Positions 60,286-64,000 of a stretch of DNA of 64,000 bases are shown here, one piece after another; position 1 is the first letter of the stretch, and every line of letters begins with the position of its first letter. Made by a program: the position numbers and the translations under genes. The notes below the pieces were generated by a model. That model was not told the origin of the DNA. It did not search any database and saw nothing but the letters and a program-made list of their open reading frames with translations. The DNA is taken from contig NZ_VYQF01000002.1 of the NCBI RefSeq assembly GCF_008710285.1, forward strand, positions 434,001 through 498,000. The letters run 5' to 3'. The DNA comes from Ginsengibacter hankyongi. GTDB taxonomy: Bacteria > Bacteroidota > Bacteroidia > Chitinophagales > Chitinophagaceae.

Positions 60286-61077
60286 CTAATACACCAGTTC
60301 AGGCACTTCATTATAAACCGCCCTTTCATGAGGCCGTGCCTTTTTCAAAAAATCTTTATCCAGCGGTGTGGCAATCATATCGGCCGAGGCAACCTGGTAA
60401 TTCGCGATATCTAAAATTTCCTGGTCTGTAAGATCATTATACAGCCAGGCTTCCGACAAATCCCCGGCAAGAATTGTAGGCATTCTTTCTTTACTGTTAT
60501 GAATTTGCTTCATTAAAGAATTGGCCGTAGTTGTTACGATTGCAAAGGTGTTCGTTGTTATTTTAGATTCTGTATCAAACCAGGGTTGCCAAATTCCTGC
60601 GAGATAAAACTCTTCCTTATTACGCATGCTGATTACGTAAGGAAATTTTTCCGGCGTTTTTAAAAGCTTACCGCTTTTACCTACTACCGTTACATGCATC
60701 CATTCATAAAAAAAATTTACTGGGACCAAACATCTTCTTTTAAGTGCAGCGTCTTTATACATTTTGCTTAGCAATTCTTCACTGGTTGCATTCAATGTCG
60801 TGTAAGGCTTATTATATTTGCCGGTATCATCTTTATAGCCAAACCTGAATCGTTTTACGTCATCCCTGGTTTTTAAATACGGCGGTAAAAAGCCCCATTG
60901 CATTTTTACAATATCGGTTTCCGTTTTGCCATTTTGTGCTCTGATAACAGGATAGGTATTATAATCGAACCCTTTGTAAATAGCAAGTTCATCACTCAAA
61001 AATCCCATGCGCTCAGCCAGTTCCATCAGCTCCTGGAATTCTGTGTTTGAAATTTTTCTACCAGTTAGATAACACAT
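60286..61077 (-). CDS. SOS response-associated peptidase family protein (YedK/HMCES type)
   Basis: 263 residues. The essential Cys is residue 2 (MCYLTGRKISN) and becomes N-terminal after Met removal. The Asn/Glu catalytic region is seen in LNATSEELLSKM and CLVPVNFFYEW. The family covalently caps abasic sites in ssDNA through a thiazolidine. The usual HxRMP motif is changed here to IHNSKERMPTIL, so the His is displaced by a three-residue insertion. The gene is the last of a minus-strand group with a radical SAM protein and two 2H enzymes. Confidence 0.92.
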   Translation of the reverse strand: MCYLTGRKISNTEFQELMELAERMGFLSDELAIYKGFDYNTYPVIRAQNGKTETDIVKMQWGFLPPYLKTRDDVKRFRFGYKDDTGKYNKPYTTLNATSEELLSKMYKDAALKRRCLVPVNFFYEWMHVTVVGKSGKLLKTPEKFPYVISMRNKEEFYLAGIWQPWFDTESKITTNTFAIVTTTANSLMKQIHNSKERMPTILAGDLSEAWLYNDLTDQEILDIANYQVASADMIATPLDKDFLKKARPHERAVYNEVPELVY

Positions 61078-61153: not shown

Positions 61154-62263
61154 TCAAAACAACTTCCCCTGTTCCCCCGGCCTCCAGAAAATATTGGTAT
61201 CCAGTTCCCACCGGTCTTCATTCATTCCATACAACTTGCCATATTTTTTATATTGCTGACGAACCATTTCTGCAATGCTTCCTTCGCCACGCATACGAAC
61301 ACCCCAGCGGGTATCATTCACCTGGCCATTATGACTATCTTCGATTAAATGCCACACTTTATCTGCACGATCAGGAAAATTTTTATACAGCCAGTCATGA
61401 AATAATAACTTAATCGCGCCATTCAAGCGGATAAAAGTATAAGCGGTAAATGTAGCACCTGCATCGCGGGCTTCTTTCATTATCCTTTGCATTTCATGTT
61501 CATTCAATCCGGGTATCATTGGTCCCATCATAACGCCCATGCGTACACCGGCGTTGCTTAACTCTTCAATTACTTTTAACCGTTGCGTTGCAGTCGTTGT
61601 TCGCGGCTCCATCACTCTTCGCAGTTCATCATTGAATGATGTAATTGAAACCATAGCAGTTACTAAATTCTTTTTAGCCATTTCCTGTAATACATCTTTA
61701 TCTTTTATAATCCACGAATTCTTGGTGAGTATGCCAATCGGCTGGTTGAACTCATTGCAAACTTCGAGTAGCCCTCGCGTTAGCCTGTACTTTTGTTCAG
61801 CAGGCTGGTAGCAATCAGTATTTCCGCTTAGCATAATCGGGGTTGGTTCATATTTTTTATTCATTAAAAATTTGCGAAGCATTTCAGCAGCGTTCATTTT
61901 TACAATGATCTTTCTTTCAAAATCAAGTCCTGCGCTGTAGCCCCAGTATTCATGCACATTGCGGGCATAGCAATAAATACATCCGTGCTCGCAACCGGCA
62001 TAAGGATTCATGCTGTACATCATACCGAGGTCGGGGCTTTCTACTTTGTTTACAATACTTTTTACCTGTTGCTCTAAATATTGGGTGCCTGCATTGGCCA
62101 CCTCCCAATCATCAATACCTTCTATATGTTCTTTAGTTTGCTGGTTTTTTAAAAATTTATTTTTAGTATTGAATTGAGCACCACGTCCGGCTAAGTATTG
62201 GTCGCTTTCTTCTTTTTGCTGAGCAGCAACTTTAAAATGGTCCTGCTGTAATTGATCAGACAT
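61154..62263 (-). CDS. PA0069-type radical SAM protein (SplB-like)
   Basis: 369 residues. The radical SAM cluster motif CEHGCIYCYARN (C-x3-C-x2-C) lies near residue 91, preceded by LGMMYSMNPYAG. Core strand motifs of the SPL/PA0069 group follow: PIMLSGNTDCYQPAEQKY, RGLLEVC, PIGILTKNSWI, VRMGVMMGPMIPGLN. This family is often found next to DNA-repair genes and resembles spore photoproduct lyase, but its substrate is unknown. The gene is 76 bases from the YedK-type gene on the same strand. Confidence 0.92.
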   Translation of the reverse strand: MSDQLQQDHFKVAAQQKEESDQYLAGRGAQFNTKNKFLKNQQTKEHIEGIDDWEVANAGTQYLEQQVKSIVNKVESPDLGMMYSMNPYAGCEHGCIYCYARNVHEYWGYSAGLDFERKIIVKMNAAEMLRKFLMNKKYEPTPIMLSGNTDCYQPAEQKYRLTRGLLEVCNEFNQPIGILTKNSWIIKDKDVLQEMAKKNLVTAMVSITSFNDELRRVMEPRTTTATQRLKVIEELSNAGVRMGVMMGPMIPGLNEHEMQRIMKEARDAGATFTAYTFIRLNGAIKLLFHDWLYKNFPDRADKVWHLIEDSHNGQVNDTRWGVRMRGEGSIAEMVRQQYKKYGKLYGMNEDRWELDTNIFWRPGEQGKLF

Positions 62264-62373: not shown

Positions 62374-62988
62374 TTACGTAAATAATTCGCCTTGTTTGGT
62401 TATAACGGGTAAGTTCATAAATTCAAAACGCTGTACAATCTGGTATGCCTTTTCTCCAACCTTTCGCTTAATCAGCAACATGCCATCAGCAATAAAACGA
62501 CCAGTGAAATGCTTATGGCTGTACTCCAGCCATCCCTTATCATATTGCCATGGCAATAATTTTCTTGCAATAGTTATATGTGGGTCATCAAAAAAATGCG
62601 GTTTATTTTCTTTGTTTAACGTCATCAGGCGTTGTGCAGGCTTTAATTCCTTTATTAAGTTTTGTACCTGTTGCTTACTTTCTATATTAATGAATATCGT
62701 ATGGCTGGGGAAACTGCCGAAATTTTTTAATTCAGCTTTAAACGGCGTATAGCCCATTCCGATAGTTTTTAAACGGCTTACCAGCCTTTCTTCCATCATT
62801 TCAAATTGAACAAAATTTACCAGTGTAATATGCGTCTTACCCCACAAAGCATTTTCAGCCTTATACTTTTCATGAAAATCTTTTTTTATCTGTATAATTT
62901 TATTGCGCAATTCTTCGTGCGGATTTAAGATCAGCAGGTATTCGTTATAGTTATACCCGGGAATCTGTATTAATGATTTTGTATCCAT
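62374..62988 (-). CDS. 2H-phosphoesterase (2'-5' RNA ligase-like), motifs intact
   Basis: 204 residues from the ATG at 62988; the frame also opens three codons earlier with TTG. The two H-x-T motifs of the 2H superfamily are present: H53-I-T55 in KTHITLVNF and H137-I-T139 in DDPHITIARKL, with about 80 residues between. The fold is LigT/CPDase-like and acts on cyclic phosphodiester or 2'-5' linked substrates in RNA. No signal peptide. It is preceded by a close paralogue (22-base gap). Confidence 0.87.
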   Translation of the reverse strand: MDTKSLIQIPGYNYNEYLLILNPHEELRNKIIQIKKDFHEKYKAENALWGKTHITLVNFVQFEMMEERLVSRLKTIGMGYTPFKAELKNFGSFPSHTIFINIESKQQVQNLIKELKPAQRLMTLNKENKPHFFDDPHITIARKLLPWQYDKGWLEYSHKHFTGRFIADGMLLIKRKVGEKAYQIVQRFEFMNLPVITKQGELFT

Positions 62989-63010: not shown

Positions 63011-63610
63011 TTAATTAACTAAATCCTCAACAAACGGCGGCAATGCAAACACAATAATTGGCTTCGGCGCATCGTACCCGTCTCTTCTTTTTAGTAACAG
63101 CAATTCATTTACCAGGAATGACTCATGAAATGATTTATGTGCATATTGTGTTAATGCTTTAAAAAAAATTTCTTCAGAAAGATTACTGGCGACACTTACA
63201 TGCGGCTTTGGGGTTAGCAGCATTGGAGGACATGAACTGGCATTTATGTATGCGTTTACAACACTTAATTCCTTTGCCAATTGACGCAATGGCGCTTCAT
63301 TTTGAATACGGAGGTAAATTGTATTAGGAGGAAAGCCACCATAATTATTTAACATAACTACAAAGCTTTTTTGCTTACTGCAAATTCTTTGCATCCAACG
63401 TATAATGGTATTTTCCATGCCTTCTTTTGCAACAAACCTGGCAACAATAATATAAGGCTTCGTGGAGATAGCCCCTTTTTCTTTGTAATCATCATAAAAC
63501 ATTTGTTTTTCAGCCATCAGTTTTTCATTTACTTCCTTCCCTGGATTTATTACGAGTAGATATTCATAACATTCGTGGGAGGAGTCATTAAGATAATTTT
63601 TGGTTTTCAT
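63011..63610 (-). CDS. 2H-phosphoesterase paralogue with lost first motif
   Basis: 199 residues, similar in length and layout to the next gene (both contain YEYLLVINPGKEV- or NEYLLILNPHEEL-type starts and a GGFPPNTIYL or GSFPSHTIFI strand). The second motif H137-V-S139 (PKPHVSVASNL) is kept. The first motif is KPYIIVARF, in which His is replaced by Tyr53 and Thr by Ile55, so catalysis is probably lost. It may bind RNA without cutting or regulate its neighbour. It starts 75 bases from umuD, divergently. Confidence 0.8.
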   Translation of the reverse strand: MKTKNYLNDSSHECYEYLLVINPGKEVNEKLMAEKQMFYDDYKEKGAISTKPYIIVARFVAKEGMENTIIRWMQRICSKQKSFVVMLNNYGGFPPNTIYLRIQNEAPLRQLAKELSVVNAYINASSCPPMLLTPKPHVSVASNLSEEIFFKALTQYAHKSFHESFLVNELLLLKRRDGYDAPKPIIVFALPPFVEDLVN

Positions 63611-63630: not shown

Positions 63631-63667
63631 ACTAATTTTAGTATAAATTTACTAAATAATTTAGTAA
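63631..63667. promoter_or_regulatory. Putative operator: two ACTAA/TTAGT inverted repeats
   Basis: The 74-base region between the divergent 2H gene and umuD has a perfect 19-base palindrome TTACTAAAT-A-ATTTAGTAA (63649-63667) and a second inverted repeat ACTAA-TT-TTAGT (63631-63642). Four ACTAA-type half-sites thus lie within 37 bases, ending 17 bases before the umuD start. The layout suits a dimeric repressor acting on both directions. The regulator is not identified. Confidence 0.55.
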
Positions 63668-63684
63668 CCTACCAAAATATTTAT

Positions 63685-64000
63685 ATGGATAGTGATAAAA
63701 TTTTTTCTTCTAAATATAACGGCAGTAAAGGGATGACCCAGTTTGATATTCACTCCGCAAATGCAACAGGGTTTGGTGCCGCAGCTGATGATTATATGGA
63801 GAGAGGCATTGATCTTAACGAGGAACTGGTCCGCAACAAGCCCGCAACTTTTTTTATGAGAGTGAGCAGCGATGCTATGAAAGAAGCGGGAATTTATAAA
63901 GGCGATGTAGCCATTGTTGACCGCTCAATAAAAGCAACTAACGGTAAAGTAATTATTGCCATTTTAAATGGTGATATGCTGATCAGGCGTTTTGAAAAGA
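63685..64000 (+). CDS. umuD: UmuD-like Pol V accessory subunit, protease-dead, 3' cut by window edge
   Basis: The frame from ATG 63685 is open to the window end (105 residues). It aligns with UmuD from TGFGAAADDY (E. coli CGFPSPAADY) through RGIDLNEELVRNKPATFF to IVDRSIKATNGKVIIA. In E. coli, RecA-stimulated self-cleavage between Cys24 and Gly25 uses Ser60 and Lys97. By residue alignment the equivalents here are Thr28-Gly29, Ala64 (codon 63874-63876, SSDAM instead of GDSM) and Arg101 (codon 63985-63987, IRRF instead of VKKL). Both dyad residues are therefore replaced. Family call from memory alignment is good; loss of self-cleavage follows from residues, not from test. umuC may follow outside the window. 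Confidence 0.85.
   Translation, partial: MDSDKIFSSKYNGSKGMTQFDIHSANATGFGAAADDYMERGIDLNEELVRNKPATFFMRVSSDAMKEAGIYKGDVAIVDRSIKATNGKVIIAILNGDMLIRRFEK

Follow-up and report, generated by a model that had tools for sequence, protein, structure and literature searches.

A Chitinophagaceae UmuD lineage with a replaced catalytic dyad and a conserved N-terminal arm

Background

Self-cleavage of UmuD is the textbook timing device by which mutagenic repair is delayed, and HumD of phage P1 is a naturally pre-cut UmuD'. As described in the available part of a study of E. coli UmuD, cleavage requires that residues of the N-terminal arm reach Ser60 and Lys97, and changes at T14, L17 and F18 free the arm to give a non-cleavable mimic of UmuD' (PMC5342242). 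Full-length E. coli UmuD carrying S60A lowers UV mutagenesis, according to the accessible portion of another report (PMC3901139). A published model of the E. coli Pol V structure has the arm of UmuD' reaching into UmuC (PMC12926913, available in part). Finally, the part of a regulatory study at hand gives CTAA-N5-TTAG as the Bacteroidetes SOS box, acting with a LexA-like repressor, names umuDC as a member of the Bacteroidetes LexA regulon, and describes UmuDAb of Acinetobacter as a self-cleaving protein with a DNA-binding domain (PMC8565304).

The lineage of UmuD proteins described here shares with E. coli UmuD/UmuD' (1umu, 8gmt) its fold, size, umuD-umuC gene order and promoter SOS box, but differs in the replacement of Ser60/Lys97, in polar residues where arm hydrophobics stood, and in a new arm motif. 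It resembles the engineered UmuD 3A (T14A L17A F18A) in having a full-length arm that is expected to dock weakly, and in that cleavage is not expected, on the available account of that variant (PMC5342242); unlike UmuD 3A it is natural and family-wide, most of its changed arm residues are other ones, the dyad is lost too, and its function is predicted. In contrast to HumD and natural UmuD' forms, the 28-residue arm is retained and conserved, and the protein studied scores 71.5 bits against the HumD model, for which the cut-off is 120. Like UmuDAb, it has left the usual UmuD role in bacteria that lack a canonical LexA; unlike UmuDAb, it has lost the dyad, and no DNA-binding domain is recognised in it. 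The Bacteroidetes LexA regulon is matched by the CTAA-N5-TTAG in the umuD operator and by a dyad-intact HTH_3-S24 protein in the genome, whereas dyad loss in UmuD is not mentioned in the accessible part of the published account (PMC8565304). Among the matches listed in a search of open PMC literature (titles and abstract starts), no natural UmuD combining a lost dyad with a kept arm was found.

Results and discussion

The umuD gene and its dyad positions

The window, meaning the whole stretch of 64,000 nucleotides that was analysed (G000:C12:434001-498000 in the assembly), ends inside a umuD frame that starts with ATG at 63685 on the + strand and continues beyond 64000. The complete gene encodes 144 amino acids (G000:C12:497685-498116), of which the window carries codons 1-105; the C-terminus lies outside, as a previous sequence-only reading of this DNA had stated. 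The relevant features are as follows.

63685..64000, then to G000:C12 498116 plus stop, + strand: umuD, a lineage member (PF00717, PRK10276.1)
63685..63768, + strand: N-terminal arm, codons 1-28, motif YxG[ST]Kx[FY]xQ..[VI]..ANAT, from column conservation in 131 sequences
63766..63771, + strand: T28-G29, at the position of the E. coli Cys24-Gly25 scissile bond
63874..63876, + strand: Ala64, codon GCT, in the column of catalytic Ser60
63985..63987, + strand: Arg101, codon AGG, in the column of catalytic Lys97

Family membership is supported by 80.5 bits against Pfam PF00717 (Peptidase_S24), the only domain that Pfam found, no N-terminal DNA-binding domain being recognised, and by 126.4 bits against NCBIfam PRK10276.1 (cut-off 110). 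The best structural match of the AlphaFold2 model is UmuD' (Foldseek, 1umu, E 3.6e-9). HMMER, aligning the protein with the UmuD and UmuD' chains of E. coli (best E 5.7e-19), pairs A64 with S60 (ssdAM / sgdSM) and R101 with K97 (lIRRfe / tVKKlq), leaving A64/R101 where UmuD or an active S24 peptidase has its Ser-Lys dyad. The residue assignments of the sequence-only reading are upheld by this alignment and by the lineage-wide Arg97 described below, and its GCT and AGG codons read clearly.

An assembly, annotation or sequencing slip was ruled out, the changes being common to orthologues: those at 88, 75 and 74 percent identity have A/R, A/R and T/R in the Ser60/Lys97 columns. A one-residue misalignment was also rejected, since Arg occupies both residue 101 and residue 102, and the columns immediately before A64 show no conserved Ser. 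The two columns preceding Asp63 contain Ser in only 21 and 34, respectively, of 131 lineage proteins, which argues against a substitute nucleophile there, alternative active sites having been assessed from conservation alone.

Peptidase_S24 was matched three times in the genome, by the window gene, by a UmuD encoded on contig C30 and by an HTH-S24 protein of C1. The C30 UmuD has both Ser and Lys, a T-G cut dipeptide and its own adjoining umuC. The Thr-Gly dipeptide reported earlier is present, at T28-G29, but it fails as a sign of non-cleavage, since it also occurs beside an intact dyad. The surrounding region of C30 (L005:879-7768) is a second damage-tolerance island with canonical umuDC, also containing, by sequence reading alone, 2H phosphoesterase-like and SRAP-like genes and, nearby, a conjugation-type gene (879-2864).

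Extent of the lineage

A pool of 266 open frames gave 247 distinct proteins, none removed for length or score, among which near-copies from two collections may persist. The lineage was defined as those for which the window protein was the best query at more than 135 bits. All 131 distinct proteins so selected have Arg in the Lys97 column; the Ser60 column holds Ala in 109, Ser in 19, Thr in 2 and Val in 1. This is the column comparison among Bacteroidota that the earlier reading had proposed, and it bears that reading out well beyond the single gene considered there, extending it to a lineage that spans the family and whose arm is rebuilt. For comparison, 97 of the 116 non-lineage relatives have both Ser and Lys. 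Seven relatives from the window's genus (L008-L014) all share Arg97, while their Ser60 column reads A, A, T, A, S, V and L; the divergent L014 (Leu/Arg) falls under the score cut-off and is counted among the others.

Of 80 loci in one collection, 55 are from Chitinophagaceae and one from Sphingobacteriaceae, most others having no family label. Among 395 genomes sampled across the class, lineage members (at least 178 bits) were confined to the window's family, the next outside match scoring 129.5 bits. Sixty-three places outside the family were read, 23 obtained as loci and 40 picked from the list, mostly as next best; none is a lineage member, and Ser and Lys are both present in 60 (23/23 loci and 37/40 picked places, the exceptions being L252, L258 and L261). 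Within the family, 241 of 394 genomes have a UmuD-like match, reaching lineage strength (best E 1e-38 or better) in 198, a count of carriers by profile score; the 55 of these that were read at residue level are all Arg97. The lineage UmuD is the sole UmuD match in 166 of the 198, a figure to be read with the incompleteness of some genomes in mind, and with the possibility that a second match is a further copy. Sampling was by genome collections and includes many metagenome bins. Spread by phage was considered and rejected: the 17 relatives in viral_contigs, a scan whose reach is limited to matches of its two peptide patterns, include no lineage member and all have Ser and Lys. Dyad loss thus belongs to a family-wide Chitinophagaceae lineage and is not a one-off mutation.

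A tree was built from a thinned set of 127 of the 247 proteins plus E. coli, with the arm and both dyad columns excluded, leaving many forks open with 114 columns for 128 rows. A branch with SH-aLRT 99 separates the lineage together with L014 from the rest. Within this clade the Ser60 column requires 8 changes while Arg97 is constant, suggesting that Lys97 was probably lost before Ser60.

The gene appears well maintained. Over 50 non-overlapping pairs, dN/dS is 0.059 for the whole gene and 0.046 for the body (residues 31-144). The corresponding figures are 0.17 for the arm (residues 2-24) and 0.014 for residues 25-30, the tightest constraint among body, arm and hexamer thus falling on the former cut site around T28-G29. 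All these values are rough since synonymous sites are near saturation. They indicate purifying selection on lineage umuD, in agreement with the earlier suggestion that the gene is preserved under selection.

A rebuilt N-terminal arm

Conservation in the arm and at the former cut is high at several positions: Y11, G13, K15, Q19, A27, G29 and F30 are each 98-100 percent conserved among the 131 proteins, residue 28 is T in 122, S in 5 and N in 4, and G29 is present in all. The window protein has Met at the [FY] position of the motif. As a canonical comparison set we used 89 UmuDs with Ser and Lys present and an arm of at least 18 residues. Large hydrophobic residues at -9, -7 and -2 from the cut (E. 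coli F15, L17 and V22) are found in 74, 77 and 86, respectively, of these 89 and in none of the 131 lineage proteins, where polar residues stand instead. Position -6 is still hydrophobic in every lineage protein; the T14 position is T, S or N in 104, and the F18 position V or I in 130. Judged by these columns, the substrate side is lost besides the enzyme side: the hydrophobic docking positions are gone and a new, nearly invariant arm motif is in place. The lineage arm resembles the freed-arm state of UmuD 3A, yet among the residues altered there L17 alone is clearly changed.

Nineteen Arg97 UmuDs lie outside the lineage. Eleven have no arm (L174, L175, L177, L180, L185, L189, L282, L283, L285, L289 and L300, all from within the family), two have short arms (L171 and L301) and six have arms of at least 17 residues, that of L181 possibly through a wrong start. 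The arm-less frames have Met at the cut position, with only 1-15 codons open upstream and no other start codon among them; they often begin MGFP, are spread over more than one tree branch, and retain Ser60 in 7 of the 11. All 97 Lys97 proteins, on the other hand, have an arm of at least 11 residues. The pattern indicates that arm-less Arg97 proteins recur as natural UmuD' forms, whereas the window lineage combines Arg97 with a conserved arm. The lineage shares Arg97 with these pre-cut types (for example L175 and L282) and, like them, would have no use for self-cleavage. Other dyads are seen in arm-bearing proteins: C60/R97 (L252, L299), E60/R97 (L258) and Q60/R97 (L261), with L299 from within the family and the other three from outside.

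The UmuC partner

The gene downstream, whose identity the sequence-only reading had left to be checked, is umuC; it encodes 426 amino acids and begins 112 nt past the umuD stop. A umuC lies within 1.5 kb of lineage umuD at 109 of 131 loci; none was found nearby at 20 loci with at least 600 nt of room, and 2 lacked room. The D-D-E catalytic residues are present in 101 of 103 full-length partner UmuCs, the other two lacking the first column, and most have a clamp-like QxxLF motif. Comparison of these 103 with 93 other sequences gave 21 lineage-specific positions, of which N383, F386 and R389 lie in the C-terminal DUF4113 tail; position 389 is Gly in 93/93 others and Arg in the lineage. Lineage UmuCs (e.g. 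L004:2233-3510) also have Met254 and a Gly220 that is absent from 91 of the 93.

AlphaFold2 gave low arm confidence for UmuD alone (residues 1-30: 52, 57, 63). In a joined UmuD-UmuC chain, modelled from 25 rows with a single UmuD copy and without a canonical control, the arm was not placed (33, 40, 38; pTM 0.48). This run lends an arm-UmuC contact no support and, though weak evidence, counts against it.

Operator and SOS box

Ahead of umuD lies an operator:

63638..63667, no strand: operator TTAGTA-N6-TACTAA-N5-TTAGTA, between umuD and the divergent gene
63652-63664, no strand: SOS box CTAA-N5-TTAG, inside the operator

The SOS box occurs within 150 nt upstream of all 129 lineage genes that could be tested, i.e. 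with at least 140 nt of upstream sequence (shuffled mean 0.44), compared with 41 of 115 other UmuDs (shuffled mean 0.66). TTAGYA-N6-TRCTAA is additionally present in 103 of the 129. In 50 umuD-umuC gaps of 20-400 nt no SOS box was found. A stricter box is present at 7 places in the window genome; its reversed control is commoner, at 11 places, so no conclusion can be drawn from the number by itself. Of the seven places, four precede the HTH-S24 gene, both umuD genes and an imuA-like gene. The HTH-S24 (HTH_3-S24) protein itself keeps Ser and Lys, and two boxes lie upstream of its gene.

Proposed function without a proteolytic switch

The sequence-only reading considered that such a UmuD would not follow the UmuD-to-UmuD' switch, and listed a constitutive inhibitor, an activator without processing and a need for a different protease. 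The switch does indeed appear unlikely, and of the three options the second fits best. The third is weakened by the loss of arm hydrophobics and by the 166 of 198 carriers with no other UmuD; the first is unlikely but conceivable.

On balance we lean towards lineage UmuD being a naturally non-cleavable, UmuD'-like subunit of Pol V, active without proteolysis. The protein would not cut itself and its arm would no longer dock over the dead site. SOS derepression, through the HTH-S24 LexA-like repressor, would lead to UmuD and UmuC being made together, and UmuD2C would then form active Pol V directly. The repurposed arm would bind a partner, perhaps UmuC, which is a candidate in view of the published model in which the UmuD' arm reaches into it (PMC12926913, available in part). 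Control exerted in E. coli by RecA-driven UmuD cleavage would here pass to transcription alone. More tentatively, the whole family may run Pol V without a proteolytic switch, UmuD being a pseudoprotease whose arm has become a new conserved binding element (for UmuC, the clamp or another partner), with mutagenesis gated by transcription and an undescribed protein contact. Against the preferred reading count the effect of S60A in E. coli, as given in the available portion of that report (PMC3901139), the clear alteration of only L17 among the 3A positions, and the 20 of 131 loci where umuC was not found nearby. Ser60 is kept in 19 lineage members, so that slow cleavage is possible there.

A lineage that has lost enzyme and substrate features but still has the gene, its operator and the polymerase is a natural test case for whether a delay is needed, and for the role of uncut UmuD. 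It also means that the NCBIfam name 'autoproteolytic subunit' (PRK10276.1) is applied to a protein without catalytic residues.

The S60A effect, and the bar that full-length E. coli UmuD places on translesion synthesis by UmuC (PMC3901139, in its accessible part), would suit a permanent brake, in which uncut UmuD keeps UmuC in a checkpoint (UmuD2C-like) state, so that replication is slowed or the polymerase held back and mutagenic synthesis is never supported. Retention of the arm here, unlike in the 11 arm-less Arg97 UmuDs, also counts in its favour. We nevertheless consider this unlikely: the partner polymerases retain D-D-E in 101 of 103 cases and mostly the clamp-like QxxLF, no second UmuD able to activate them was found in 166 of 198 genomes, and the hydrophobic arm positions are gone.

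The constraint on the T28-G29 hexamer (dN/dS 0.014) and the canonical UmuD on C30 raise the question of cleavage in trans, in which the arm would be removed by a general protease or by a further S24 protein, be it canonical UmuD or the LexA-like repressor; McDonald in 1998 reportedly described intermolecular UmuD cleavage, which would count for this. It seems improbable, given that no other UmuD was detected in 166 of 198 carriers, that P3 and upstream hydrophobics are absent from the arm in 131/131 proteins, and that near-fixed residues lie far from the cut, where a mere substrate would not need them.

LexA with Lys156 changed to Arg shows weak autodigestion at high pH, and by analogy Arg might partly stand in for the Lys base, giving a slow switch in the 19 of 131 members that keep Ser60; the literature matches listed contained nothing on this LexA variant. 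Such residual self-cleavage is very improbable as a general account, with 112 of 131 proteins, the window protein included, lacking the Ser nucleophile and no replacement Ser in the two columns before Asp63 (21 and 34 of 131). That the gene is a decaying relic of a formerly active UmuD, as the lost dyad and the variable Ser60 column of the clade might suggest, is scarcely credible, being already contradicted by the selection estimate (dN/dS 0.059, synonymous sites near saturation) and by the retained umuC and SOS box.

Neighbouring genes

Across the operator, on the opposite strand, lie the following genes.

63011..63610, - strand: 2'-5' RNA ligase/2H phosphoesterase-like protein, 199 aa (PF13563, 38.3 bits), across the operator from umuD
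62374..62988, - strand: second 2H phosphoesterase-like gene (PF13563, 54 bits; coordinates from the ATG start, family search from 62979)
61154..62263, - strand: PA0069-family radical SAM protein (NF033668, 467.9 bits, cut-off 360)
60286..61077, - strand: SRAP (SOS response associated peptidase) family protein (PF02586, 117.8 bits)

Among 60 lineage loci, those of the 80-locus collection with at least 3.9 kb of upstream sequence, 47 have a divergent 2H phosphoesterase gene whose start is 71-291 nt upstream of umuD, and 42 have a divergent radical SAM gene no more than 4 kb upstream. With its start so placed, the divergent 2H gene can, from its position, share the umuD operator. Elsewhere in the genome, SOS boxes lie 61 nt ahead of a 242-aa imuA-like gene (L160, G000:C7:34145) and 60 nt ahead of a 485-aa SIS-domain-like gene (L158, G000:C1:707138), both named by reading alone.
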